Notes under the pieces: model-generated
Told to the model about the DNA's origin: nothing
The model's database searches: none
The model's input: the letters and a program-made list of their open reading frames with translations, nothing else
In this document: positions 34,383 through 62,547 of the stretch, in pieces
Layout of the letters: every line of letters starts with the position of its first letter
Position numbering within the stretch: position 1 is the first letter of the stretch
Source of the DNA: Isosphaeraceae bacterium EP7
GTDB lineage: Bacteria; Planctomycetota; Planctomycetia; Isosphaerales; Isosphaeraceae
Assembly: GCA_038400315.1 (NCBI GenBank)
Contig: CP151667.1
Coordinates: forward strand, 62,001 to 126,000
Length of the DNA: 64,000 nucleotides
Direction of reading: 5' to 3'
Made by a program: the position numbers and the translations under genes

Positions 34383-35528
34383 ATGCCTGCCAGGCGCCTG
34401 CGCCCAGGATTCACCCTGATCGAATTGCTCGTCGTCATCAGCATCATCGCCGTCCTGATCGCCCTCCTCCTGCCCGCCGTTCAAAGTGCCCGCGAGGCGG
34501 CCAGGCGCATGCAGTGCACCAACAATCTCAAGCAGATCGGCCTGGCCATCGCCGGCTACGCCGACGTCAACGGCTGCACGCCGATGCACCAGTACCGCTA
34601 CACGCAGGAGCATAATTCCTCCAGCCCGCGCGGCTATTCGGGCACCAAGTCGTGGCTCTGCGGCCTGCTGCCGTACATGGAAAACTCCGTGATGGCCAAC
34701 TCCTTGAACTACTCCTACACCCCGGAGTGGGCCTACAGCGGTGCGGTGACCGGGCCCGACCCCACCTGCTCGACGGTGATCCGTGCGACCGTCTCGACCT
34801 TCCTGTGCCCGTCCGACGGCGTGGTCAACACCGGCTCGGGCGAGCCGTCCGTGATGTACCCATGCGGCAACTTCAATTATGTGGGCAACACCGGCCACCC
34901 GCGTAACGTCCTGATGCCGGGGGACAGCCCCAATGGCGGCAACGTCCCGCAGTTGACGGGCGTCATGTCGATGGACCGGATGTACCCCGAGCAGGGATCC
35001 TGCAAGAGCGCCGCATCGGCCGCCACCACCAACGTGACGGTGACCCTGGCCAGCATCACCGACGGCCTGTCCAACACGGCCGCGGTCAGCGAGTCGCTGG
35101 TCAACGACGGCACGGGCAAATCGAACGACCGCAGGCGGCTCCTGAATTACACCGACGCGGCACTCATCGAGCAGGCCGACGTGCCGGCCATCCTCGTCGT
35201 GCAGGACGGCCTGGCCAATGCCGTCAACTGGGAAGCCTGGAGCATCTTCAAAGGGCACACCTGGGCCTACACCGACGCCTGGCAGCGGCACGTCTACTCT
35301 CACCTGCTCCCGCCGAACGCAGCGCCCGTGACTACCTACTACACCGACACCTTCCGCTGCTCGGAAGGCGACAGCGGCATGAACCCGACCAGCAACCACC
35401 CCGGCGGCGTGAACCAGTCGATGATGGACGGCTCGGTCCGGTTCATCAAGAACTCGGTGAACCTGAACGCCTGGTGGGCCCTGGGCACCCGGAACAAGGG
35501 CGAGATCATCTCGGCCGACGCGCTCTGA
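34383..35528 (+). CDS. DUF1559 protein with prepilin-like leader and H-x9-DG tail
   Basis: 381 residues. The basic N-terminus [20 protein letters not shown] is a type IV prepilin-like leader: cleavage after G and methylation of F are expected, leaving a hydrophobic helix ([20 protein letters not shown]). The DUF1559 start [20 protein letters not shown] follows, with [22 protein letters not shown] and the C-terminal [17 protein letters not shown] (H-x9-DG motif), then [18 protein letters not shown]. Planctomycetes carry many such paralogues; they are thought to be envelope-anchored, pseudopilin-like proteins of unknown role. GAGGAGCCCC precedes the ATG. A lipoprotein gene follows 66 bp later and is probably co-transcribed. 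Confidence 0.92.
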
Positions 35529-35594
35529 TCCCTCTGTCCGTCCAGCGACCCGTCCCCCTGCCCCGTACCATTCCTTCGGAGACGCAGAGCAGCC

Positions 35595-42655: not shown

Positions 42656-42855
42656 GCGCACCTCCCTTTCGACCCAACGCCCGGCGCGTACCGCCCAGGG
42701 CCCGGTCACGACCCTCCCCGCGACGCGGGACCAAGGGCCGGCCGCCGGGGATCTCTCTCCGGACAGCCCCTTGATTGTAGGGCCGACTGCCCCTGGGCTC
42801 AAGAACCAGGGGCAGAAGGCCCGTCGGACCCCGGCCTGCGTACCCCTCGCGAAAT

Positions 42856-42922
42856 TATTTTGGAAAAATTTCCAGATAGTAGGGAGGAAATCCTCGGACG
42901 GAACGACTGTATCGAATAGGGG
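42856..42922. repeat. Structured TATTTTG...AATAGGGG element, copy 1
   Basis: An AT-rich 67-bp island within the otherwise GC-rich 42656-43167 interval, which has no gene. It begins TATTTTG, has the dyads TGGAAAAATTTCCA (42861-42874) and GAGGAAATCCTC, then GGACGGAACGA, GTAT and AATAGGGG. A second element at 52761-52838 has the same order and 18 of 22 identical bases in the final GAACGA...AATAGGGG block. It ends 246 bp upstream of the protease gene. On the minus strand it could encode PLFDTVVPSEDFLPTIWKFF, so a coding remnant is an alternative to a regulatory or RNA element. Confidence 0.55.
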
Positions 42923-43167
42923 GCCTCGTTTTCGGGGGCAACGGCGAGGAAGCCTGCCCCTTTCTGCCGAGACCTGACGGCGCGACGTTGCGCCCGCCTT
43001 GAATCTCGCCGAGGAGCGAAACCGGACGGGGCGGATGCCTCGGCCGGCGGGCCCGATGGTCCGCATTGAATCAACGGGCCCCGCAGCTCGCAGGGCCTGG
43101 CCGAATGACCCCGACCGCCGGAGGAGCCGGTCGACGGACACCAAGATTGACCCCTGGGACACGCCAA

Positions 43168-45234
43168 ATGATCTCCAATCCACCGGCCGAAGGCGACCTC
43201 GGTGGCCCGCCCGACCAGGCACCGGTTGGCCAGACTGGGCCGGCACAGGGCCCGGGCCTCAACGGCAGGCTGATCGTCGCCGACCCGATGGTCGCCGATT
43301 CCCTGCGCCCCGAGACCCTGCGTGCCGACCTCTCGACGACCGCGCTGGGCCACTGCCACGCCTTCGCCCCGGCCACGACCGCCGCCCTGGCCGCCACCGC
43401 GGCCACCGCCACGGCACGCGCCGCCGACCCCGGCCCCAAGCGATACCAGACGACCCGCGCCTTGAGCACGGGTCGCCCCCGCTTCGAGCTGATCATCGAC
43501 ACCAGCAACCTCGTCCCGTTCGACTTCCTCCGACAGGGCGACCGCGTGGGCCGCGCCGTGGTCAAGCTCGAGCGCGAGGACGGGGCCACAGGGACCGGGT
43601 TCCTCGTCGCTCCCGACATCCTGCTGACCAACCACCACGTCTTGCCCAACGCCGCCACCGCCCTGTCGTCCTACGCCCTGGCCAACTACGAGCGCACGCC
43701 CCCCGACGACGCGTGGGGGCGGTCGGTGGTGGCCCCCCTGGAGCCCCAGCGCCTGTTCGTGACCAATTCCGACCTGGACTTCACCTTCTGCGGCGTGGCC
43801 AACCTTGAGTTCCTGGGCGTCATCCCCGTCGACCGCAACAGCCTGGACATCGCCCGCCATGAGCGCGTGAACATCATCCAGCACCCGCGCGGCCGCCCCA
43901 AGGAGATCGCCCTCCAGGACAACGAGGTCGTCCGCGCCGACCACCTCGTCGTGCAGTATTCGTGCGACACCGAACCGGGCTCGAGCGGCAGCCCGGTCTT
44001 CAACAACCGCTGGCGGCTGGTGGCCATGCACCACGCGTCGGTCCCCATCACGGCCGGCGGCGGAGACGAGGGGCACGGGCGCTACCTCAACGAGGGGATC
44101 CGGATGTCGGCGATCGCCATCTGGCTGGAGATCGCCGAGCCCGCCGATCTCACCCAGCGGCGCTGGATCGAGCAGCTCCGCGGCATCTTCGGCGGCCTCG
44201 ACCCGCAGGTTGGCTTCTTCGGCGCGCTGGGCCGCCAGGTCCAGGGGCTGGCCACCGCCGAGATCATCGCCGACAGCTACCTGGGCGGCGCCGACGACCT
44301 GGACGTCGCCTTCTGGGACTTGCAGGGCCCTCGGATGTCCCTGCGCGATCGCCTGCCCCTCCTCACTCGCGCCATCGCTTCGATGGGCATGGACCTCTGG
44401 GTCCTGACGCACCTCGACCCCGCCGACGTCGTCGTGCTCTGCGATGAGCTGGCCGGCAGCCACCGGCTCGACTACGGCGTGCAGGCCGGCATCTCCGAGC
44501 GCGGGGCGCCCATCACGATCCTCTACAAGCGGGACGGCCTGCTCTCCGTGACCCGCCCCGCCTGGGCCGCCGGCTCCGGCGCCAAGGCCCCGCCCCGCGT
44601 CCTGGTCCGCACCACCTCGCGGCGGGGCGAGACCCGCGACGTCCACCTGGTCGTCTTCGCCCGGGCCCACGACGAACCGCAAGCCGCCGGCGCCCAGGTG
44701 CCCGAGCCGCCGACGTCCCCCCCCGTCGCCGAGATCCGCCCCTGGATCGAGGCCATCCTGATCGAGGCCGAACGCCCCGGGCCCGACGCCCACTGGCTCC
44801 TGCTGGGCTGCACCGAGACCCTGCTCACTCCCTGGAAGGTCGCCCGGGTCACCTTCCGCGACCGGCCCCTGTTGCCGATCGCCGCGGAGCACCCCACCGA
44901 CGGGGCCATCCTCGTCCTTCAGGCCGCCCGGGCGCGCCTGGGACACCTCTACCTCTCCCCCGACATGACCGCGAGGGCCGCCAGCAACGCGAGGCTCACC
45001 GTCGTCCACGACCGCCAGCTACCCGCCCTCGACCGGACCCTGATCCGCCACGCCCCCATCGCCATGCGCCTCTGCTTCCGCACCCCCCCCGAGCCGGCGC
45101 CCGAGATCGTCGAGCCCGAGCCCGGACCCATCGAGCCGGCCCCAAAAACCCCGAAAAACGAAACGAACCCGGCGCGACGCCGCGCCTACACCGCCTGGAT
45201 CGACCGCCTCTTCTCTCCCAGGTCCGCCCGCTGA
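43168..45234 (+). CDS. Trypsin-like serine protease with C-terminal endonuclease/phosphatase-like region
   Basis: 688 residues. An N-terminal Ala/Thr-rich region (1-100) has no signal peptide. The protease domain has LLTNHHVLP with His157, SDLDFTFCGV with D204 as probable Asp, and CDTEPGSSGSPVF with Ser273 in the GxSGSP oxyanion motif. VNIIQHPRGRPKEI and WRLVAMHHASVP are typical of glutamyl-endopeptidase/DegP-like peptidases. After a helical linker, residues 378-465 read DLDVAFWDLQG, LLTRAIASMGMDLWVLTHLD, VVLCDELAG, DYGVQAGISERGAPITILYK, resembling the endonuclease/exonuclease/phosphatase fold opening (VxxWNL ... DIWxLxE). A Pro/Glu-rich tail ends it. The ATG at 43168 begins MISNPPAEGD; longer starts add low-complexity residues. 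The pairing of protease and EEP-like region is unusual. Confidence 0.78.
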   Translation: MISNPPAEGDLGGPPDQAPVGQTGPAQGPGLNGRLIVADPMVADSLRPETLRADLSTTALGHCHAFAPATTAALAATAATATARAADPGPKRYQTTRALSTGRPRFELIIDTSNLVPFDFLRQGDRVGRAVVKLEREDGATGTGFLVAPDILLTNHHVLPNAATALSSYALANYERTPPDDAWGRSVVAPLEPQRLFVTNSDLDFTFCGVANLEFLGVIPVDRNSLDIARHERVNIIQHPRGRPKEIALQDNEVVRADHLVVQYSCDTEPGSSGSPVFNNRWRLVAMHHASVPITAGGGDEGHGRYLNEGIRMSAIAIWLEIAEPADLTQRRWIEQLRGIFGGLDPQVGFFGALGRQVQGLATAEIIADSYLGGADDLDVAFWDLQGPRMSLRDRLPLLTRAIASMGMDLWVLTHLDPADVVVLCDELAGSHRLDYGVQAGISERGAPITILYKRDGLLSVTRPAWAAGSGAKAPPRVLVRTTSRRGETRDVHLVVFARAHDEPQAAGAQVPEPPTSPPVAEIRPWIEAILIEAERPGPDAHWLLLGCTETLLTPWKVARVTFRDRPLLPIAAEHPTDGAILVLQAARARLGHLYLSPDMTARAASNARLTVVHDRQLPALDRTLIRHAPIAMRLCFRTPPEPAPEIVEPEPGPIEPAPKTPKNETNPARRRAYTAWIDRLFSPRSAR

Positions 45235-45603
45235 ACATCGCCGATTCAAATTGGCCCCCCGGGAACGCAGGAGCCCGCGACGCTCGCCTCTCATCACGAC
45301 ATGGCCCCTGACGACTTCTTGTCCCCGCCCCTGTGACCTCATCGCCCGGACGACCGGTCTGACGGCTTCAACCTGACCGACCGATCGAGGGATTCGAGGC
45401 CGGATCGAGGGCGCCGCGGCGTAGCTTGGCGACTTTGGGCGTGCATCGGAGCGGGCCTGAGTTGGATGCGAGGTCCTTCGTCGTTCAATCATTGACCGAT
45501 GATTCTTGGTCCGATGCAGTCCCGTCGGTGCAACGAAAGAAAATGAAATTCGCGAATGTTTGATTTCCAATGATGAGAATTTTATCTTGTACGGAGCAGG
45601 CCG
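45235..45603. promoter_or_regulatory. Intergenic region upstream of the acyltransferase gene
   Basis: 369 bp with no supported gene. The last 110 bp are markedly AT-rich for this genome (GAAAGAAAATGAAATTCGCG, GAGAATTTTATCTTGTACGG) and probably carry the acyltransferase promoter. TTGACC at about 45493 could be a -35 element but no convincing -10 box is spaced from it. Confidence 0.3.
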
Positions 45604-46653
45604 ATGTCCGCCTCGCCGCCGAATAATATCAACGCGATCCGCCTCGCCCTGTCGGTCTCGGTGCTGTATTCACACTCGTATCCGCTCGGGCTCGGGAACG
45701 AGAAGACGGAGCCGCTCGCGGTCCTGACCGGCGGCCAGGCGACGATCGGATCGGTGGCCGTCGCCGCGTTCTTCGCGATGTCGGGCTACCTGATCGCCGG
45801 GAGCTGGGGGCGGTCGAGCTCGTGGCGCTCGTTCGCCGTCCGCCGCGTCCTGCGCATCTATCCCGCCTATCTCGTCGCCGGCCTGGTGTGCTACCTGGCC
45901 TTCTCGATGGAGCCGTCTGCCCTGGGCGCCTGGGGGCTGCTGCTGCTGCGGAACGTCCCCAGATCCGCGGACTTCGCCGGCAATCCCACGCCGCTGGTGG
46001 TCAACGGCAGCCTCTGGACGATCCCGTATGAGGCCTGGAGCTACGCGGGGATCGCGATCATGGGGGCGGCCGGGCTGCTGGGCCGCCGCCGTGTTCTTGT
46101 GGGCCTCCTGGTCGCCTCGATCGTCGCCGGCGTGCTCTTCGAGGCGTACGAGATCAATACCAACCTCAAGGGGCTCGGGTCGATCGTCGGCTGGCCGCGA
46201 TTCTGGGCCAGGCTGCTCCCCTCGATCTTCGCGGGGGCCCTGTTCCACGCGATGCCGGGGCGTTTCCGGTGGCACCCGCTGCTGGGCCTGGCGGCGGCCT
46301 GCGGCCTCGCCATCGGGGCCCGCGTCCCGCTTGGGATGACCGTCGCCCTGCCCACCTGCGGCGTCTATCTGCTCTTCGCCGCGGCGTTCGGCCCCTCCTG
46401 GAACTGGGGCGAGCGGGTCACCCGGTACGGCGATTTCAGCTACGGGATCTACCTCTATGCCTTCCCGATCCAGCAGGCCGTGATGCGCACAATCGGCCAT
46501 CCGACGAGCGCGACGGAGCTGTTCGCCCTCTCCCTCCTGCCCGCGTTCGCCGCCGGGATAGCGAGCTGGCTGCTCGTCGAGCGGCGATTCCTGGCCGCGA
46601 AACGCCCGCTGCCCGGCGGTGTCGCCCTCAGTCGAGGGCCGTCGCCCGCCTGA
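45604..46653 (+). CDS. Acyltransferase 3 family (OafA-like) membrane protein
   Basis: 349 residues with about ten hydrophobic helices. The N-terminus has NNINAIRLALSVSVLYSHSY then PLGLG, the family's first helix with the conserved His (H23-region SHSYP), and AVAAFFAMSGYLIAGSW with FxxSGY, followed by RRVLRIYPAYLVAGL (RxxRIxPxY), all standard for acyltransferase 3. SLWTIPYEAWSYAGI and YGDFSYGIYLYAFPIQQAVM are the usual late helices. These proteins acylate sugars or peptidoglycan at the membrane surface, so a role in decorating exopolysaccharide fits the neighbouring sugar genes. GGAGCAGG precedes the ATG. Part of its 3' end is duplicated at 48880-49015. Confidence 0.9.
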   Translation: MSASPPNNINAIRLALSVSVLYSHSYPLGLGNEKTEPLAVLTGGQATIGSVAVAAFFAMSGYLIAGSWGRSSSWRSFAVRRVLRIYPAYLVAGLVCYLAFSMEPSALGAWGLLLLRNVPRSADFAGNPTPLVVNGSLWTIPYEAWSYAGIAIMGAAGLLGRRRVLVGLLVASIVAGVLFEAYEINTNLKGLGSIVGWPRFWARLLPSIFAGALFHAMPGRFRWHPLLGLAAACGLAIGARVPLGMTVALPTCGVYLLFAAAFGPSWNWGERVTRYGDFSYGIYLYAFPIQQAVMRTIGHPTSATELFALSLLPAFAAGIASWLLVERRFLAAKRPLPGGVALSRGPSPA

Positions 46654-46689
46654 TCCGCGCCGGGTGGGCGACCCTCTATAATCGAGGAA

Positions 46690-46723
46690 ACGCCCCTCCC
46701 CCGCGTTTGGCGAGGGCGGGGCG
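46690..46723 (+). terminator. Terminator downstream of the acyltransferase gene
   Basis: CGCCCCTCCCCCGC pairs with GGCGAGGGCGGGGCG across a GTTT loop, with one bulge. It starts 37 bp after the stop codon and has no long T-run. The equivalent stretch is deleted in the duplicated tail copy at 48880-49015. Confidence 0.55.
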
Positions 46724-46873
46724 TCGGTGATCGTCCGTTGTCCCGAGAGGATCCGGCTCCGCCCTGCCCGAGGCGTCGTGGGAGGCCATCGCGCCCGCGG
46801 CGTATGACCTGGACCGATCGTCATCAGTCGAGGGGAACCGACGACGGGTTGTCAGGCCTGCCGATCAACGCGT

Positions 46874-48382
46874 TCAGAACTCAACCTTATACTTCGTCGT
46901 CAACTGCCTTCGCATGTCCGAGATGCTTGTCTCGATGGCCTGCCATCCCTGGTCGACCTGCACGCTGACGACCGAATTATATTGCTTCGCGAGGACGGCG
47001 GCATCATTGCTCTTATTGCTGCCGGAGACGCCGTAACCGTAACCGCCATAGTATCCGTTGGCCAGGCCCGCGGTGCGATAAGTCCGGTCCTTGGCAGCGT
47101 AATTGATGCCGGAGGCCATCTGTCGAACGTTGAGGGCCATCTTCGCGCCCCAATCGAGCAAATCGGTGTCGACGTAAAGGAGCGGCAGTTCTTCAATCTC
47201 CTTGGCGGACCTGTCATACCAGAGCTTCTGGCTTTGCGACGATTTGGGGGTCTGACGCTTCAAGTCGCGGAGAATGCCCGCGGTGGCGGCATAGTAGCGC
47301 TGGGTGGCCTTGAGTCCGTCCGCCTGGGAGATCTGCTGCGGGGGCGTGGGTTGCTGACCTTTGGTCGCGGCGACTGCCGGAGTTTCGGATGGCTCGATCG
47401 CCGACTCATAAGTGGGCGTCAGTCTGGGCGCGGCGACGATGCTGAGGATCCTCCGGACGGAGTCCTCGTCCATCGCCCCCGACATCGTGATGGTCTTGTC
47501 ATCGACGCCAAAGGACCACTTCTTGATGTCCTCGAGCGAGGCGCCGTAACCTTCGAGGATCTCCAGGACGACTTGCCGGGCGATCGGCTTGATCAGGGTG
47601 AGTGAGCTGTCGAACTCGATCTGGATCGACCCGTGAATCGTGTCCTTGATGTCGATCTGGAGGAACGCGAGCTTCGCCCCGGACAGGGCGCCGGCTTGCG
47701 AGGGGAAGTTGATTTCGCTCAGCTTCACCGTCGGGTCATCCAGCGTCTTCAACCAGGCGATGGCTCCTTTCGAAGAGACGGAATCCGCCAGATCGACCGC
47801 GAGCACAATCTGAGAACCCGCGTCCGCCCGGATGAGGGCCTTATCGGCCCACCCCGGCGGGAAGGGACGGGGCTTGACGAGAGTCTTGTAGAGCCAATCC
47901 GCCAGCAACTGGCGATTTGCCGGGGCGACGAATCCGACGATCTTCTGCGGGAACGAGAGGAGGTAGACGTCGCGCGGGGTCCAGGCCACGTTATGGGTCT
48001 GGATTTGTTCGACGTAACCCCCTTCGCGCGCCGCCAGCGTGGAGAGCGGCGGCGGGGTTGCATGGGTTTGCAGCATCCCGAGTTTCCAGCGCTCCTGCGC
48101 CGTCTGGAGATCGAGACCCGCCGCGACGACGAACTTGGAAGCGTCCCCCGACACCCCCAGGACCCCGGTCGGGCCGTTATTTGCGCGATCTCGCCAGCCC
48201 TCGCGTTTGCCCATCGGGCTGTCGAGGATGCCGTCGACATCAACGAGCACCAAGACATTGGCCTGCTCGGGGAGCCGCGTCAGCAACTCGCCGTACTTCT
48301 TGCTCGCCCCCTGAACGCCGCTGGGTTGGGCAGTCAGGGCGATCATCGCCGCGAGCGCGGCAAGGCAGTGGTTTCTCTTCAT
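46874..48382 (-). CDS. Secreted hypothetical protein
   Basis: 502 residues, not recognised. It has a signal peptide MKRNHCLAALAAMIALTAQP then SGVQGA, and no transmembrane segment after it. Features include VLVLVDVDGILDSPMGKREG, a possible VDVD pair near residue 45, several long amphipathic helices (WKLGMLQ, LLADWLYKTLV, AWLKTLD), a Gln/Pro/Thr linker (ATKGQQPTPPQQISQADGLK), and a Gly/Tyr-rich stretch near the C-terminus (GLANGYYGGYGYGVSGSNKS). It ends SDMRRQLTTKYKVEF. The style is that of large planctomycete exported proteins of unknown function. AGGAGCG precedes the ATG at 48382. The gene sits inside the segment bounded by the duplicated acyltransferase tail. Confidence 0.75.
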   Translation of the reverse strand: MKRNHCLAALAAMIALTAQPSGVQGASKKYGELLTRLPEQANVLVLVDVDGILDSPMGKREGWRDRANNGPTGVLGVSGDASKFVVAAGLDLQTAQERWKLGMLQTHATPPPLSTLAAREGGYVEQIQTHNVAWTPRDVYLLSFPQKIVGFVAPANRQLLADWLYKTLVKPRPFPPGWADKALIRADAGSQIVLAVDLADSVSSKGAIAWLKTLDDPTVKLSEINFPSQAGALSGAKLAFLQIDIKDTIHGSIQIEFDSSLTLIKPIARQVVLEILEGYGASLEDIKKWSFGVDDKTITMSGAMDEDSVRRILSIVAAPRLTPTYESAIEPSETPAVAATKGQQPTPPQQISQADGLKATQRYYAATAGILRDLKRQTPKSSQSQKLWYDRSAKEIEELPLLYVDTDLLDWGAKMALNVRQMASGINYAAKDRTYRTAGLANGYYGGYGYGVSGSNKSNDAAVLAKQYNSVVSVQVDQGWQAIETSISDMRRQLTTKYKVEF

Positions 48383-48879
48383 CGAGACGCTCCTGATGGT
48401 CATCAGATGTGATGAAAAATGCAGAGTTGGGAACGCGCCGAAAGCGAGGATATTTCGTCTCGGTGGATCGAACTGATGCCTAGATTCGAGAACTGCGACG
48501 ATTTGTGGACCGCCATCCCAGCACTTAACTCCATCGGGAGCAAGGGAGTACCGATGGAGGATCTGAATTTGTCAAAGAAATGTGACTCGATGGCTGATCT
48601 GCTCGTCTGGATCGCCGCCATCATCGGGTCGGCGCAGCTCATTCCATGCTGGTCCGTTGTCCAGCCCGACGCGTCGTCGGCCGGCCCTATGGCCAAGCAC
48701 CCTGCGAGCCAGCCGAAGTCTATGGAGGTCGCAGAGCAGGACATCGATCACCTAGCCGGATGACCCCGACATCGAAGAAGTGGATCGCCAGTCATATTTG
48801 GACGACACCGCGGAGTTGGCCTATGGTTGATCCGGCCCCATCGAGGAGTCGCGACCGTGGCTTGTCCGCCCTCGGTGGC
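48383..48879. other. Gene-poor interval before the duplicated acyltransferase tail
   Basis: About 500 bp. Overlapping frames on both strands (48419-48763 plus, 48403-48744 minus) show no protein-like order, signal peptide or ribosome-binding site. Base composition is lower in GC than the surroundings. Nothing is supported. Confidence 0.4.
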
Positions 48880-49015
48880 CGCCGGGATGGCGAACTGGCT
48901 TCTGATCGAGCCGCGATTCGTGGCCGCGAAACGGCTGCTGTCCGGCGGTGTTGCCCCCAGTCGAGGGGCGTCGCCCGCCTGACCGGCGCCGGGTGGGCGG
49001 GTCGTCGGTTATAGT
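48880..49015 (+). pseudogene. Partial duplicate of the acyltransferase 3' end
   Basis: From GCCGCCGGGATGGCGAACTG through CGCGAAACGGCTGCTGTCCG to GGGGCGTCGCCCGCCTGACC this stretch matches 46545-46668 of the intact gene at most positions, including the stop codon. In frame it reads AGMANWLLIEPRFVAAKRLL then SGGVAPSRGASPA, against AGIASWLLVERRFLAAKRPL then PGGVALSRGPSPA. The similarity continues past the stop (GCGCCGGGTGGGCG, GTCCGTTGTTCCGAG) but lacks the terminator hairpin. No upstream acyltransferase sequence remains, so it cannot be functional alone. Confidence 0.75.
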
Positions 49016-49077
49016 CCGTTGTTCCGAGTGGGTCCGACATCCTCGCCCCGGACAGATCCAAGCCCAACGAGGCTCGC

Positions 49078-49503
49078 ATGGCCGCCGTCATCCACGCCTC
49101 AGGCGTCTTCTTCGACCCGGATGCCTTCCTCGCCGAGGGCGAGCTCGAGCCCTCGAGCGTCTATCGACGGGGTGAACTGTTCCACGCGCCGGGGCACCCC
49201 GACAATGGCCATCACGCCGCGTCGGGCTTCGACCTGGTCGTCAGCGAGGCCGACTACCGCGAGTTCCCCCGCCAGGCCGAGGAGGCCACCGCCTTCCTGC
49301 TGGCCAACCGCGACGAGTTCGCCCGGCTCCGCGACGCCCGGGGCATCGAGCGCCTTGCCCTCGACTTCGAGATCACCCGCCACGAGATCGTCGTCCAGGG
49401 AGACGCCCTCCCCCCGTCCCTCGCCCATCTGGCCGATGAGCTTGGTCTGATCATCGAGTTCTCCCACATCCCCGATGGCGACGAGCCGGGAGAGGCCGCT
49501 TAA
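49078..49503 (+). CDS. Conserved-style hypothetical protein
   Basis: 141 residues, cytosolic, not recognised. It reads MAAVIHASGVFFDPDAFLAE, SVYRRGELFHAPGHPDNGHH and GFDLVVSEADYREFPRQAEE, then ATAFLLANRDEFARL, ALDFEITRHEIVVQGDALPP and LADELGLIIEFSHIP. Alternating strands and helices and the LDFEI strand recall the small DUF4279-like or immunity-type proteins, but the match is too loose to name. ACGAGGCTCGC precedes the ATG. The stop codon overlaps the convergent cysteine desulfurase stop by a few bases. Confidence 0.65.
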   Translation: MAAVIHASGVFFDPDAFLAEGELEPSSVYRRGELFHAPGHPDNGHHAASGFDLVVSEADYREFPRQAEEATAFLLANRDEFARLRDARGIERLALDFEITRHEIVVQGDALPPSLAHLADELGLIIEFSHIPDGDEPGEAA

Positions 49504-50657
49504 CCTTCGGCGAGCGGGGCGAGACGGCGGACCACGGCGACGATCCGCATCATCGCGTCGTCGACCTCGCCCTCGGTGGTCGTCGCCCCCAGGCTGAACC
49601 GGACCGACGACTTCAGGCGGTCGGTCGGCACGCCCATCGCGACCAGGACCGGCGACGGCCGCAGCGAGCCGCTGGCGCAGGCCGAGCCCAGCGAGGCGGC
49701 CACCCCGGCCAGGTCCAGCTGCATCAGGAGCGACTCGCCGTCCAGCCCCGGGAACCCCACGTTGAGCGTCTGAGGCAGCCGTAACCTGTTGTCCCGCGGA
49801 CCGTTCCGAATCGCCATCGCCGGCCCAAGTAATTCAACCAGCCCGGCCTCCAGTCGATCCCGCAGCCGCGTCCACCGCTCGATCCGCTCCAGCCGACTCG
49901 TATGCCAGAGTCGCAAGGCCTCGGCCAGCCCGACGGCCAGGGCCACAGGCGCCGTCCCGGGCCGCCTACCCTTCTGCTGCCCGCCGCCGAAGAGTCTGGG
50001 AGGGAGCGTCACCCCGGGCCGGATCAGGAGCACGCCGACGCCAGCCGGGCCGTGGAATTTGTGGCCGCTGGCCGCCAGAGTCGCCACCCCCAACTCTTTG
50101 AACTGGACCGGAATGCGGCCGACCGCCTGGACGGCGTCGGTGTGGACGGGCACGCCACGTTCGGCCGCCATTCGGGCCAATTCGGCCACCGGCTGGATGG
50201 CCCCGGTCTCGTTGTTCGCCAGCATCAGGGCTGCCAGTCGGGTTTCCGGCCCGATCATGCCGGCCATCGCGGCGGCATCCACCAGGCCGTCGGGGCCCAC
50301 CCCGGCCAGGTCCACGGTCAGGCCGGCCCGTCCCAGCTCGGCCGCGGCCTCGGCGACGGCCGGATGCTCGATCGGGCTGATCAGGGCCCGGCCACCGATC
50401 GACCCAACCAGGCCGAACATGGCCAGGTTGTTGGCCTCGGTCCCCCCCGACGTGAACACGACATCCGCCGGCCCTGCTCCCAGGATCTCGGCCACCAGCC
50501 CGACGGCGGCGTCCCAGGAGCGACGCGCCGACCGGCCCGCCGCATGTCGGCTCTCGGCGTTGCCAGCGGCCAGCCAGTGCGGCCGCATCGCCTCCAGCAC
50601 CGAGGGGTCGAGCGGGGTCGTCGCGTTCTGGTCGAGATTGATGGGGGTGCGGGTCAT
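49500..50657 (-). CDS. Cysteine desulfurase, NifS/IscS family
   Basis: 385 residues, fold-type I PLP enzyme. The LDQNATTPLD start, FTSGGTEANNLAMFG phosphate site, SPIEHPAV with the ring-stacking His98, HTDAVQAVGRIPV with the PLP-binding Asp, ASGHKFHGPAGVG with the Schiff-base Lys200, and SLGSACASGSLRPS with the catalytic loop Cys327 are all present. It releases sulfur from L-cysteine as an enzyme-bound persulfide for Fe-S clusters, thiolated tRNA or other sulfur carriers. The NATTP motif and CASG loop place it in group I (NifS/IscS) rather than SufS. No iscU or iscR is adjacent. It converges on the 49078-49503 gene with a 4-bp overlap. Confidence 0.92.
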   Translation of the reverse strand: MTRTPINLDQNATTPLDPSVLEAMRPHWLAAGNAESRHAAGRSARRSWDAAVGLVAEILGAGPADVVFTSGGTEANNLAMFGLVGSIGGRALISPIEHPAVAEAAAELGRAGLTVDLAGVGPDGLVDAAAMAGMIGPETRLAALMLANNETGAIQPVAELARMAAERGVPVHTDAVQAVGRIPVQFKELGVATLAASGHKFHGPAGVGVLLIRPGVTLPPRLFGGGQQKGRRPGTAPVALAVGLAEALRLWHTSRLERIERWTRLRDRLEAGLVELLGPAMAIRNGPRDNRLRLPQTLNVGFPGLDGESLLMQLDLAGVAASLGSACASGSLRPSPVLVAMGVPTDRLKSSVRFSLGATTTEGEVDDAMMRIVAVVRRLAPLAEG

Positions 50658-50691
50658 CTCGGATCCAGGCCGCCCGTCGGTTCGCCTTGTC

Positions 50692-50904
50692 TCAGCCCAC
50701 GTTGCGCAAGGTCAGCAGCAGGCCGACGACGAACAGGGGGATGCCGATGGGGTAGAGCGGCCCCGACCAGAGTGCCGCGCCGCAGACCATCAACGCGAAC
50801 CCGAAGACCAGACCGACGAGGCGGCCGGCCGCCGCAAACGTCCAGAAGACGATGCGAAAGGGCATCGTCAGCACCTGCCAGATGGTCCCGATCATGAGGG
50901 TCAT
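50692..50904 (-). CDS. Small two-helix membrane protein
   Basis: 70 residues from the ATG at 50904 (or 67 from 50895). MTLMIGTIWQVLTMPFRIVF then WTFAAAGRLVGLVFGFALMV and CGAALWSGPLYPIGIPLFVV form two hydrophobic helices; the end is GLLLTLRNVG. There is no other motif. The pattern of a first amphipathic segment followed by a G/A-rich helix is typical of small membrane proteins in planctomycetes. It lies 34 bp upstream of the cysteine desulfurase start, in the same direction. The long frame beyond 50904 overlaps the divergent promoter region and looks non-coding. Confidence 0.6.
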   Translation of the reverse strand: MTLMIGTIWQVLTMPFRIVFWTFAAAGRLVGLVFGFALMVCGAALWSGPLYPIGIPLFVVGLLLTLRNVG

Positions 50905-51230
50905 TCTACCAGAATCCCAAGGCGGCTGACGCGAGCCGGGGTCGGCCGGCCGTGTGGCCGAGATCGCCAGGTGCGGGGCCTGGACGAGCTTGCGCCCGCG
51001 CAACAGCCCCGGCAGGCGACTGGGCTTGCCCAATCTGGCCGAGTTCGGTTCAATGCCCGCCCGTCGTCCTCTCATGATATTCGCCGAGTTCGGCGTTCTC
51101 TTGGGCTCGCCTTGAGGTTTTCCGCGGACACCCCGGTCGCCGGGGCCTGGATGATGTCGTCGGATCGATCGGGCCGGGCCCATGGATGGCCCCCGGCCCA
51201 CCCGGAGGAAGAGGCAAGGAGGCCCCGACC

Positions 51231-52064
51231 GTGCGCAAAGCCCTCTTCGCATTGATGCTGCTGGGCGCCTCGTTCGCCGGCGGCGCGGCCATCAACGGGC
51301 CCGCCTTCGAGGTCGCCCGGACCTGGCTGATGGGCCGCACCCGGAGCCTCGTCATCCTCACTTCGGGCCAGCCCACGCCTGCCGAGGCTGCCCCGGCCGA
51401 CCCCGGCCTCAACTCCGACGCGGTCTCCGAGGCTGAACCCGACTCGATCCTGACCCCGGCCTACCGCAAGATGGGCCTGCCGGGCCGGAAGTCGCCGGCC
51501 CTCGCCCGCAAGGGACAGGCCCCGGCGCCCGACGCCGAGGCCCCCAAGCTGCCGACCGCCGGATTGCCCACGGTCGCCGACCCCACCGCCCCCGAGCCGC
51601 TCGATCCCAAGGCGTTATCGCTGTCCTCGCCCCCGGCGGGCCCCGACACCGCCCCGCCGCCGGACTTCGGACCTCCCATCCAGGCCGCCGGAAGCTTGCT
51701 CGCCGATCTCACTGCCCCGGCCCCCGCCCCCGCGCCGCCGGCCTTGCCGGTCGACCCGGCCGTCGCCCCCGCCGCCGTCGCCCCAGCGGTGCAGGCCCCC
51801 AATCCGCTGAGCCCCTCGGGCGGTCGGGCCGGCTCGCGTGACTGGTCCGAACTGAGGCGCAAGCTGCGAGCCGCCGGCGTGGCCCGCTACGAGCTGAAGG
51901 CCGAGCCCGAGGGCCGAGCCCACATCGCCTGCCTGATCCCCCTGGCTGGCCGCCGAGCCGTCGCCCAGCAGTTCGAGGCCGAGGGGGCCGATGAGTGCGC
52001 CGCCGTCGAGGCCGTCCTCCGCAGGATCGCCCTCTGGAAGGCCACCGAAGGGGGGACGCCATGA
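51231..52064 (+). CDS. Exported or anchored Pro/Ala-rich hypothetical protein
   Basis: 277 residues from a GTG at 51231, with AAGGAGG nine bases upstream; the ATG at 51186 lacks such a site. Residues 1-25 (RKALFALMLLGASFAGGAAI) form a signal anchor. Residues 60-200 are a Pro/Ala-rich low-complexity linker (PAPAPAPPALPVDPAVAPAA). A compact C-terminal domain follows (WSELRRKLRAAGVARYELKA, EPEGRAHIACLIPLAGRRAV, AQQFEAEGADECAAVEAVLR, RIALWKATEG), probably a small alpha-beta fold. The layout - anchor, flexible spacer, globular end - suggests a periplasmic sensor or envelope-spanning protein. Family unknown. Confidence 0.7.
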   Translation: MRKALFALMLLGASFAGGAAINGPAFEVARTWLMGRTRSLVILTSGQPTPAEAAPADPGLNSDAVSEAEPDSILTPAYRKMGLPGRKSPALARKGQAPAPDAEAPKLPTAGLPTVADPTAPEPLDPKALSLSSPPAGPDTAPPPDFGPPIQAAGSLLADLTAPAPAPAPPALPVDPAVAPAAVAPAVQAPNPLSPSGGRAGSRDWSELRRKLRAAGVARYELKAEPEGRAHIACLIPLAGRRAVAQQFEAEGADECAAVEAVLRRIALWKATEGGTP

Positions 52065-52190
52065 CTGGCCCACGCCCCCCGGGCCCATCTTGTCGGCCGC
52101 GGGCTCGCCTCGGTAGCATGAATCCAGGCCGGTCGACGCGGGGGGCTGCTCCCCTCCACGGCCGGGTCCCCAGGCAGGAAGTCTCTCGGC

Positions 52191-52670
52191 ATGGCCTCAG
52201 AGCCGTCGGTGAAAGCCGTCCTCATCATCACCGGCACCAGCATCCGCGCCGAAGAGCTCGACCGGCCGCTGGCCTACTACCTCAAGCAGAAGGTGGAGGC
52301 CGCCCTGGCCGACGGCGACCATGGGGCCAGGCCCCCACGGGTCGTCGTCATGAGCGACCTCCGCTGGTTGCACGACGAGCCCCTCCAGGTGCTGCCCACC
52401 ATCTGCCTGGGCGGTCCCGGCGTCAACGCCCTCTCCCGCCGCTGGCTCGAGCAGGTCCCCTTGTCGATGGCCGTCGACGACCGATACTATATTCAGATGG
52501 ACCCAGACCTGGACGAGCCGCACGTCTGCATCTGGGGCATGGACAACGCCAACACGCAGATCGCCGTCTCCCTCTTCATCGATCGCTTCCTCCCCTACTT
52601 CCTCGACCAGGTCCTGACCGCCGACCTCGACTCGACCGACATCGACCTCGATGCCGAAGACAACGACTGA
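52191..52670 (+). CDS. Hypothetical protein with Rossmann-like pattern
   Basis: 159 residues, cytosolic. AVLIITGTSIRAEELDRPLA then YYLKQKVEAALAD is a beta-alpha unit; RVVVMSDLRWLHDEPLQVLP then TICLGGPGVNALSRRWLEQV is a second, and HVCIWGMDNANTQIAVSLFI then DRFLPYFLDQVL a third. The GGPGVNALSR turn looks like a ligand-binding loop. The C-terminus is acidic (STDIDLDAEDND). I cannot assign a family. The start follows CAGGAAGTCTC. It is the last of two plus-strand genes before the structured element at 52761. Confidence 0.68.
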   Translation: MASEPSVKAVLIITGTSIRAEELDRPLAYYLKQKVEAALADGDHGARPPRVVVMSDLRWLHDEPLQVLPTICLGGPGVNALSRRWLEQVPLSMAVDDRYYIQMDPDLDEPHVCIWGMDNANTQIAVSLFIDRFLPYFLDQVLTADLDSTDIDLDAEDND

Positions 52671-52760
52671 CCGAGCCTCCCGCCCCGCTCTTCCGCACAT
52701 CGAAGCCGATGTCATCACCACGCTCAGTCGCGGCGACTCTTCCCGGCCCGCCGCCCCGCC

Positions 52761-52838
52761 TATTTTGTCAAGAAATTGCCACGAGGCGAATTTCTTAGGG
52801 ACGGAACGCTCCGTTCGAACGATGGTATTCAATAGGGG
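52761..52838. repeat. Structured TATTTTG...AATAGGGG element, copy 2
   Basis: A 78-bp AT-richer island in the gene-free interval 52671-53030. It begins TATTTTG, has a perfect 8-bp hairpin AAGAAATT...AATTTCTT, then a second dyad ACGGA-ACGC-TCCGT, then GAACGATGGTATTCAATAGG ending GG. Order and end motifs match copy 1 at 42856-42922. It ends 193 bp upstream of the next gene. About 70 bp further on, GGCGCAACGTCGCG also occurs near copy 1 (about 42980) in inverse orientation. On the minus strand the block could encode PLLNTIVRTERSVPKKFASW. Confidence 0.55.
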
Positions 52839-53030
52839 CAATCCATCGCGGATGGCCCCGACAACGACGCCGGGGGGCATCCACCCTCCCCGTCGCGTCC
52901 CCTCCGGCGCAACGTCGCGTCGGCCGGGCCGGGGGCTCCGAGGCGCCCCTCCCGACTCCGCGCGGTCACGCGGAGGCCGCCCAAGGAAGGCGGCCGGTGG
53001 GTCCCGACCCAGGGATGGGGAGGTGCCTCC

Positions 53031-54272
53031 ATGCTCGCGCTCGCCCGCCGTACGCACAGGAAGCCCGCCCGCTCGGCCGCCCTGCCGGCCTTCGCGCTCG
53101 GGGCCGCCGTCGTCTTGCTCGGGGCCGGGGTTACGCCCGCCTCCGAGGACCCCGCCGGGCCGGTGGCCCAGGTCGAGGCCGTCGCCGTGTCGAACGCCAA
53201 CGGCAACAGCCGGACCCCGCGCTCGGCCGCCGACTTGCTCAAGCCCGACATCCTCCCCCCGAGACCCGCCGCCGAGGTGACGACCCTCTCGTCCGCCGGC
53301 TCGCCCGCCGACGCGTCCGCCCACGCCTTGACCGTGCTCGGCCGCGCCCACGCCCAGGACCAGGGGGCCTGGCACGTCGACTACCGCCTCAGGATCGACG
53401 GCCCCCACGGCCTGATCCTCGCCCCCTCGGAGGTCACCGCCCGCGTCGAGGGCTGGGTCTCCAACTCGCGCGTGTCCGGCCACTCCATCCCCCGGTTCAG
53501 CAGCGCCACCCTCTCCGGACCCGCCGCCGCCGCGGGCCTGTCCGACGTCATCAACGCCGTCGAGGAGGCCGGCCGCTGCCGCGAGCGCCTCATCGTCCAG
53601 GTCTGGCCCGAGGCCAGGCCCCCGCTCGCACCGCCCGACCCCCACGCCGCGCACCGGCCCTTGCTCAGCCTGGCGCCGGGCTCGGTCCTCTGCGTCCGCG
53701 TCCGCCTGGAGCATGAGCACGTCGTCTTCGGCGACTACGACCCCCTGCTCGGCCTCCGCACGCTCGACCTCCAGCTCGGCCCGGTCGCCCTGCGCGACGG
53801 CCTGCCGCTCGACCGCGAGCAGTACCGGGCGCAGGCCCTGGGCAACTGGACCGAGCCCCCCGCCGAGCGCCTTGACGCGAGGATGGCCGTCTCCGGCCCC
53901 GACAGCCTGCACCTCCAGGCCCACGTCCCCGGCAACCACTACTTCCGCTTCCGTGAGCGCCCCGTGCGCTACGACACCCGGATGCGCCTGACCTACTGGT
54001 ACGCCGTGGCCCCCGGCACCGAGGGCGAATGCCGCGCCCGGATCGCCCAGTACAAGGAGACGAAATCCTCCTGGAAGGTCCTGCCCGACGGCTCCCACGA
54101 GCAGGTCCTCGCCACCGTTGGCCGCTGGGTCAAGGTCGAGCGAACCTTCCGGACCGAGCGCGACGCCACCACCCTGGCCCTCGACTTCAGCCTCACCGGC
54201 TCCGAGGTCGGAGAAGCCTGGGTCGACGACGTCCGCCTCGAACGGGCCGACGCCCTCGCCGCCGGCCCCTGA
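53031..54272 (+). CDS. Secreted protein with C-terminal carbohydrate-binding-like domain
   Basis: 413 residues. The N-terminus MLALARRTHRKPARSAALPA then FALGAAVVLLGAGVTPAS is a long basic signal peptide. The middle (DYRLRIDGPHGLILAPSEVT, ARVEGWVSN) is beta-rich. The last 140 residues resemble CBM4/9-type jelly rolls: LHLQAHVPGNHYFRFRERPV, RMRLTYWYAVAPGTEGECRA, VGRWVKVERTFRTERDATTL and ALDFSLTGSEVGEAWVDDVR with the usual closing W-x-DDV. These modules bind glycans or mediate protein contacts. No catalytic motif is seen. GGGGAGGTGCC precedes the ATG. It probably works in the periplasm or outside the cell. Confidence 0.7.
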   Translation: MLALARRTHRKPARSAALPAFALGAAVVLLGAGVTPASEDPAGPVAQVEAVAVSNANGNSRTPRSAADLLKPDILPPRPAAEVTTLSSAGSPADASAHALTVLGRAHAQDQGAWHVDYRLRIDGPHGLILAPSEVTARVEGWVSNSRVSGHSIPRFSSATLSGPAAAAGLSDVINAVEEAGRCRERLIVQVWPEARPPLAPPDPHAAHRPLLSLAPGSVLCVRVRLEHEHVVFGDYDPLLGLRTLDLQLGPVALRDGLPLDREQYRAQALGNWTEPPAERLDARMAVSGPDSLHLQAHVPGNHYFRFRERPVRYDTRMRLTYWYAVAPGTEGECRARIAQYKETKSSWKVLPDGSHEQVLATVGRWVKVERTFRTERDATTLALDFSLTGSEVGEAWVDDVRLERADALAAGP

Positions 54273-58098: not shown

Positions 58099-58156
58099 GA
58101 GGAAGTGCTCTCGCCAGGGATGACCGATGAAGAATCCGACGACGCTGCGTTCGACC

Positions 58157-59152
58157 TCAGAAGGCGTCCGCGCTGATGATCTCGCCGCCGGACCTCGTGC
58201 CGATCCCTCGCCAGGCGGCGATGTTGATCGTGTCCTTGCTGAACCGCACCGAGCCGTCGACCATGAGCAGGTTCACGCCGCCGGAGTGGTTGCTATTGGC
58301 CGTGGTCATGATTCTCGACGGCGGGAACATGCACGAGCGCGAGTTCGGCGGCCCCGAGTGCCAGTAGCTGGTCGTCGAGTGGTAGCCGTAAATCCAGGGG
58401 GCCCCGACGTTTGAGTAGCCCTGCATCGACAGGTTCTTCACGTCCGTGGCCCGGCAGAGGGCGACGGCCTCATCGGGGGTCGCCGGGTAGGTGCCGGGGC
58501 GGTAGGTGTCGAGCTTGTCGGTGGAGACCGTCTGGTCGAAGTCGCCCCGCAGGTGCTCGCTGAACGCGGCGGTGTTGCTCGTGCCGTCGATGACGTCGGC
58601 CATCCGGATCATCTGATCCGAGTAGAACATCCCGTTGGGGGCCGCGACCGTCTTGTTCACGCCGGTGGTGTCGCTGACGCCGTACCACATGGCGACGCTC
58701 GTCCCCTCATTGGACCGGTAGCTCGTGCCGCTGCCGTACGTCGCCGGGACCTTCGTGCTGGCGTCCGACGGGCAGACGAACGAGGCCACCGACGACGCCG
58801 TTGCCGTCGTGATCGCAGGATCGGTCCAGCCGACGGCGAAGTTCAGCGCATTCCCCAGGTTGCTCTGCTCGATGAACGGCAGCAGCCTGGCCAGCGGGGA
58901 GTACGACACGGCCTGCGGGATCGTCCGGCCCAGCGGGAAGGCCCCGATGGTGTCGTGATAGTTGTGCATCGCCAGCCCGAGCTGCTTCAGGTTGTTGGTG
59001 CACTGGATGCGCCTGGCCGACTCGCGGGCCGACTGCACGGCCGGAAGCAGCAGCGCGATGAGCACGGCGATGATGCTGATGACGACGAGAAGCTCGATCA
59101 GAGTGAACGCGCGGCGAACCGCCGCGGCATGAGTGCGCAAGGGACGGATCAT
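58157..59152 (-). CDS. DUF1559 protein with prepilin-like leader and H-x9-DG tail
   Basis: 331 residues. The leader reads [20 protein letters not shown] then [20 protein letters not shown]; the residue before F is Ala rather than the usual Gly. DUF1559 motifs follow: [48 protein letters not shown] and [20 protein letters not shown], ending [15 protein letters not shown]. The protein is expected to be anchored as a pseudopilin-like subunit. It is the first gene of a probable unit with the AhpD-like and catalase-like genes, which associates this paralogue with redox functions. Confidence 0.92.

Positions 59153-61497: not shown

Positions 61498-62547
<1,050 letters not shown>

Follow-up and report, generated by a model that had tools for sequence, protein, structure and literature searches.

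The window analysed here (the whole stretch of 64,000 nt of Isosphaeraceae bacterium EP7, contig CP151667.1) contains two copies of a short element, both read on the plus strand. Copy 1 (42855..42923, +) was recovered by direct reading and by two sequence-only models, R1 and R2, described below; copy 2 (52760..52839, +) was recovered by direct reading and by R1, the R2 match spanning 52787-52842 only. An open reading frame (ORF) with a trypsin-like peptidase domain (Pfam PF13365, E=7.8e-21) follows copy 1 at 43066..45234 (+), with candidate ATG codons at 43105 and 43168, and an ORF of 413 aa without any Pfam family at E<=0.001 follows copy 2 at 53031..54272 (+). A preliminary description had taken these places for two AT-rich islands with a conserved structure. 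The islands are indeed present, TATTTTG opening them at 42856 and 52761, and their end blocks, GAACGACTGTATCGAATAGGGG and GAACGATGGTATTCAATAGGGG, are identical at 18 of 22 bases. They belong to a genuine repeated element upstream of plus-strand genes and are no coincidence; judged from its sequence, this element is probably a lineage-specific promoter of non-housekeeping type, and not a folded RNA.

Two short blocks are conserved in each copy, as defined by alignment and by the information profile of 26 stand-alone ("solo") copies. In copy 1 these are AGGGAGGAA (42881..42889, +), -35-like, and GACTGT (42905..42910, +), -10-like; in copy 2 they are AGGGACGGA (52797..52805, +) and GATGGT (52821..52826, +). 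An AT-rich dyad can also be read in both copies, TGGAAA-AA-TTTCCA at 42861..42874 in copy 1 (stem p=0.147 when taken alone) and AAGAAATT ... AATTTCTT at 52770..52796 in copy 2 (stem p=0.020). The 10-mer GGACGGAACG, put forward earlier as a common part, does occur exactly at 42896 and 52799 and nowhere else in the window, but the two positions are not homologous: in copy 1 it runs into the GAACGA block, and in copy 2 it stops 8 bases before that block. With up to one mismatch it has 4 matches in the window against 11.9 expected, and is therefore unremarkable in itself. The same holds for the short end pattern GTATNNAATAGGGG taken alone (2 occurrences with at most two mismatches, 0.78 expected).

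A dispersed family with two blocks at fixed spacing

In the 7.2-Mb EP7 genome, the string GAACGANNGTATNNAATAGGGG has two exact matches and two matches with three mismatches, against none for the reversed control, and the two additional matches also bear the upstream AGGGAG block and AT-rich palindrome of the window copies. Model R1, built from these four copies, found 29 places in the same genome at E<=10, of which 15 had E<0.01. The second model, R2, built from 28 copies, gave 45 matches at E<=0.1, namely all 28 training copies and 17 others. In the R2 search 150 of 453 first-look candidates were scored, and E-values are rough. The preliminary description had named the absence of further copies as part of what would speak against it, and in this respect it stands.

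The 45 copies are dispersed along the chromosome. Nineteen lie in the leaders of genes of one multicopy family, here called SRNAL after its N-terminal sequence MGKxxVSQxRIDANRRNAxxSTGPxTxEGKxxSRRNSLxHGL, with the end of the element roughly 65-100 nt before the start codon by coordinate comparison; the 26 others, copies 1 and 2 among them, are solos. Genes following the solos are mixed (cardiolipin-synthase-like, RNase III-like, trypsin-like and others), as judged by Pfam for copies 1 and 2 and by eye, start codons included, for the rest.

Outside EP7 the element was not recovered. With 150 first-look candidates scored per genome, which bounds counts and absences alike, R2 searches of 29 further genomes from the class, including 18 from the same family, gave no match at E<=0.01, and R1 had none at E<=0.001 in 20 other genomes. 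R1 did not find it either at the 20 loci examined out of 80 loci of the larE type (see below). The 30 relatives compared included no congener, and none was recognised among the 80 larE loci, a set in which records of EP7 itself may be missing.

The layout of the element is an A-rich block, AGGGAGGAA, 15 variable bases, GAYTRTnTCnA, and then a G-rich stretch. From the start of block 1 to the start of block 2 the distance is 24 nt in 28 of 28 aligned copies, without any gap, while the bases in between vary, and the information profile of the 26 solos peaks at positions 0-8 and 24-34. Two blocks at a fixed distance with a free spacer are what a bacterial promoter shows, whichever sigma factor reads it.

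In general, these blocks do not carry the housekeeping consensus of TTGACA- and TATAAT-like hexamers 16-18 nt apart. A sigma-70 consensus scan returned no site in 52600-53100, around copy 2, and none on the plus strand in 42700-43200, around copy 1; with at least 9 of the 12 consensus bases required, sites appeared in only 2 SRNAL leaders out of 34 (from -260 to 0) and in a single solo out of 26 (from -150 to +150). In the two SRNAL leaders with such a match (L046 and L066), the sigma-70 boxes coincide with the place of the element in the leader alignment, which fits the element as a promoter slot.

An ordinary sigma-70-type promoter is nevertheless recognisable in the intergenic region of copy 1. 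The consensus scan finds it on the minus strand (42774..42803, CTTGAGC...TACAAT), where it reads TTGAGC-N17-TACAAT and serves a divergent larE-like gene, Pfam having given NAD_synthase and Asn_synthase. Since the recognisable promoter of the region serves this gene on the other strand, copy 1 is the candidate for the plus-strand promoter. The spacing in the two is comparable; most copies of the element, unlike the larE promoter, carry AGGGAGGAA and GAYTRT and are rejected by the consensus scan. The larE-like protein is 73-81% identical to its closest records (Aquisphaera insulae 76%, Tautonia sociabilis 73%, several Isosphaeraceae bins), and similar boxes can be read before several of its homologues (several of loci L097-L113).

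Promoters of extracytoplasmic function (ECF) sigma factors have the consensus GGAAC ... CGTC with a spacer of 16-17. They resemble the element in having two short blocks at a fixed distance, the upstream one purine-rich and including GGAA, and in being distinct from the housekeeping promoter of the same genome. The test for a GGAAC/CGTC-like pair was negative all the same: the GGAGGAA upstream box is a mere resemblance, the downstream box is GAYTRTnT instead of CGTC, and no sigma gene could be tied to the element.

The downstream motif and the SRNAL genes

A second sequence, ACGAA(C/G)CC, accompanies the element on the same strand. Between 50 and 750 nt after the element it was found in 18 of the 26 solos, for a total of 46 copies. 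The opposite strand of this DNA has 3 and the upstream side 2 and 1, and about 1 would be expected from the rate in the window. As the motif had first been noticed in these very loci, and solos L176 and L207 had been found through it, fairer figures are 16 of 24 solos without these two, and 5 of 9 once the solos used to train R2 are set aside as well.

The same motif is concentrated in the variable tails of the SRNAL coding sequences. The tails of these genes contain 61 CGAA(C/G)CC sites in 12.7 kb, distributed over 33 of 34 genes, versus 5 in 27.5 kb of cores, and codon-shuffled tails contain a mean of 12.9 sites (maximum 22 in 300 shuffles). Three quarters of the tail sites share one reading frame (46, with 5 and 10 in the others), so that a role at the peptide level is conceivable. 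In the Glu-Arg-(Thr/Ser) of the tails, however, CGA encodes the arginine 36 times out of 38, versus 57 of 512 elsewhere in the tails, which points to selection at the nucleotide level.

The longer form AAACGAACCC has 143 copies in the EP7 genome against 3 for the reversed control, sometimes in 19-nt tandem arrays. Its sole exact copy in the window (motif scan) is at 45161..45170 (+), close to the end of the trypsin-like ORF. Among 40 clusters fetched, drawn from 100 listed of the 143 places, a crude test puts about 32 outside ORFs; dispersed examples are G000:C1:2275620-2275724, 4046069-4046116 and 4311850-4312011. The possibility that the element stands upstream of every ACGAAACGAACCC cluster was rejected, as 3 of these 40 have it in the fetched DNA, and one of the three is the L014 leader, known before and situated 2.4 kb upstream. 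Nor was there support for a cassette with the element and the motif as its limits, most motif clusters being without the element and showing no constant boundary.

Enrichment of AAACGAACCC is not a property of the whole class: 9 of 11 genomes of other families are below twice the reversed control, and higher counts were seen in G019 (9 vs 2) and G029 (20 vs 8). Among 19 genomes from the family, those with more SRNAL copies tend to be more enriched in the motif (Spearman 0.65, p=0.003, uncorrected for kinship; 0.58, p=0.011 without EP7), with one clear exception, G003, which has 21 SRNAL matches and no enrichment.

The SRNAL family itself comprises 37 matches in EP7, of which 34 are long, stop-free and 57-100% identical to the query, and 3 are divergent. 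R2 reaches 16 of the 34 long genes and all 3 divergent ones. The protein has no Pfam or NCBIfam match (two members tried), no PDB chain with a 14-member profile, and among PHROGs only matches at E>=0.09. SRNAL is multicopy in several other genera of the family too (24, 21, 26, 24 and 11 matches in G001, G003, G007, G008 and G024, respectively). In three SRNAL leaders of G001 (L071, L084 and L091), a different dyad (ATTCCG...CGGAAT or near) precedes boxes resembling TATGGTAT or TATGCTAT and then a hairpin, a layout similar to that of the EP7 element with unrelated sequence. The SRNAL gene nearest to the window is just left of it, at G000:C1:60817-61623 (-). Inside the window, the stretches 58149-58294, 58928-59025, 61552-61638, 62380-62450 and 35390-35532 (-) are 76-86% identical to DNA 3' of the SRNAL gene L037, and by their sequence appear to represent an unrelated repeated gene or segment neighbouring L037.

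Other possible readings: folded RNA, mobile relic or operator

The element could be part of a structured RNA whose first stem is the AT-rich hairpin, be it a leader acting in cis or a small RNA family that begins with the element at its 5' end. The preliminary description had seen conserved structure as the core of the element, and several copies, including 1 and 2, do present TTnGG...CCnAA hairpins with varied bases. Yet RNAalifold proposed no consensus pair on 28 aligned copies, so no covariation supports a new structured RNA at the element, and the length of the spacer is nearly rigid. The second dyads of the two window copies turned out not to be equivalent, and the spacer that holds the second dyad is not conserved in its folding (p=0.95). 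Over the 26 solos, the whole element folds slightly better than shuffles (Fisher p=0.03), which is no better than upstream control DNA (p=0.02). Rfam gave no match in the window at gathering scores and none at E<=1 in 9 loci.

The first AT-rich dyad fared better, being mildly enriched in a dinucleotide test on the 26 solos (Fisher p=0.013, against 0.98 and 1.0 for two control regions; p=1.5e-7 for 32 copies in a less strict test with mononucleotide shuffles), but it is strong only in a minority of copies (4 of 26 at p<0.05). Three solos, L011, L023 and L024, have arrays of the motif and no same-strand gene next, and so resemble small RNA units. All in all, we consider a structured RNA unlikely. 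The minus-strand coding remnant that had also been suggested does not hold well, as stops break the proposed frame within the element in 10 of the 26 solos, leaving it open in 16; a long minus-strand homologue elsewhere was not searched.

Folding is found beyond the element. The 60 nt 3' of it fold better than shuffles in the solos (p=0.0017) and above all in the SRNAL leaders (p=6e-12). In the window, a hairpin GGGGC...GCCCC (52835..52859, +) directly follows copy 2 (60-nt fold z=-2.48, p=0.020), and copy 1 has none of comparable significance (z=-0.74, p=0.204). Two GC hairpins 3' of the element in SRNAL leaders covary, with 6 of 11 pairs changed on both sides and 90.3% of cells paired against a shuffled mean of 86.2%, neither value being reached in 500 shuffles; this count was made on 30 of 34 leaders, L050, which is visibly without the hairpins, and L065-L067 being excluded. 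These GC hairpins are probably a folded 5' untranslated region (UTR), a part separate from the element, and their position fits a transcript starting just before them.

A non-autonomous mobile element or its relic, the solos then being SRNAL leaders left behind by transposition or gene decay, seems improbable to us as well, although the dispersal of the element along the chromosome, its absence from the other genera searched and the amplification of SRNAL genes in several genera would all suit it. One solo, L248, is a decayed SRNAL leader, 80% identical over 101 bp to the leader of L060; this second leader lies about 1.4 kb upstream of the intact one. Two others, L246 and L251, have in common 31 identical nt around the motif and another stretch of similar sequence further downstream, and are thus probably duplicates. 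However, a long DNA match to SRNAL was found at L248 only, and no SRNAL protein relic was detected at E<0.05 within 1.5 kb after any of the 26 solos (tblastn, best 0.079). The point at which SRNAL copies start to resemble one another varies from -24 to -448, without a common 5' boundary (terminal repeats and target duplications were not searched).

Conserved leaders of multicopy genes with additional stand-alone copies are known from HEARO/omega-RNA and the IscB-type genes. The same arrangement is seen here, with an element devoid of a conserved fold, and the likeness is an analogy only, since the SRNAL protein has no Pfam/NCBIfam match for two members and no PDB match.

That the element is the operator of a transcription factor with a palindromic AT-rich site, next to ordinary weak promoters, is very doubtful: the AT-rich block is a near-perfect palindrome in some copies (GGAAATTTCC and relatives), some 20 nt upstream of block 1, but the dyad is weak or absent in most, whereas nearly all of the 28 aligned copies retain both blocks.

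A probable promoter and the transcripts it would start

We thus return to the element as a promoter. An alternative sigma factor, or sigma-70 with an activator, would read it, AGGGAGGAA acting as -35-like box and GAYTRT as -10-like box, with the A-rich block upstream and transcription starting near the G run that follows. The element has been copied along with the paralogous SRNAL family, and also stands alone. Of the two window copies, the first would drive the trypsin-like gene and the second the gene for the 413-aa protein. Most copies would give rise to transcripts bearing ACGAA(C/G)CC, in noncoding stretches after the solos and in the coding tails of the SRNAL genes. The presence of the motif in most predicted transcripts makes it probable that a common RNA-level factor acts on them.

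Several observations weigh against this scheme. The boxes match no named sigma factor, and in the alignment of 34 leaders, L052, L065 and L066 have a one-base gap in the spacer. Eighteen of the 34 full-length SRNAL genes are without R2 match at E<=0.1, and most of them, not all, can be aligned by eye. The excess of dyads is left unexplained by a plain promoter. Among the solos, several are some 200-710 nt from the next same-strand start codon (chosen by eye), a crude ORF test shows no clear gene on the same strand directly after L011, L023 and L024, and no obvious regulon emerges from the genes that follow. As to the motif, 8 of 26 solos have none downstream; copy 2 is one such case, the motif of copy 1 lies 2.2 kb away, and at L020 the 3-kb locus carries 8 ACGAACCC on its other strand. 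Finally, in the analysis of the GC hairpins, a control slid by +3 also gave 6 pairs changed on both sides, although only 34% of cells then pair, instead of 90%, and the score is 0.045 vs 0.152.

A broader scheme may be considered, tentatively and with low confidence, in which the element and ACGAAACGAACCC are the two ends of one RNA-level network. The lineage-specific promoter would produce noncoding sponge-like RNAs and many paralogous SRNAL mRNAs labelled with this motif, and SRNAL proteins would bind the motif, regulating themselves and the genes with motif-bearing UTRs. The joint rise of SRNAL copy number and motif enrichment can be adduced for it. Sponge RNAs of the CsrB/RsmZ type are noncoding and carry several copies of one short protein-bound motif. 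The solo loci, as far as motif counts tell, are likewise noncoding stretches with a repeated short motif; unlike in CsrB/RsmZ, the motif is ACGAAACGAACCC, the loci are many, and the motif is found in coding tails as well.

A search of literature listings brought up neither a promoter class of this kind in the group nor the SRNAL family or the motif. The promoter reading predicts noncoding transcripts, and a common start signal before many members of the multicopy SRNAL family (37 in EP7), together with about 25 solo sites and tied to a motif apparently under nucleotide-level selection in coding tails, would provide a handle on a family that is so far unexplored.

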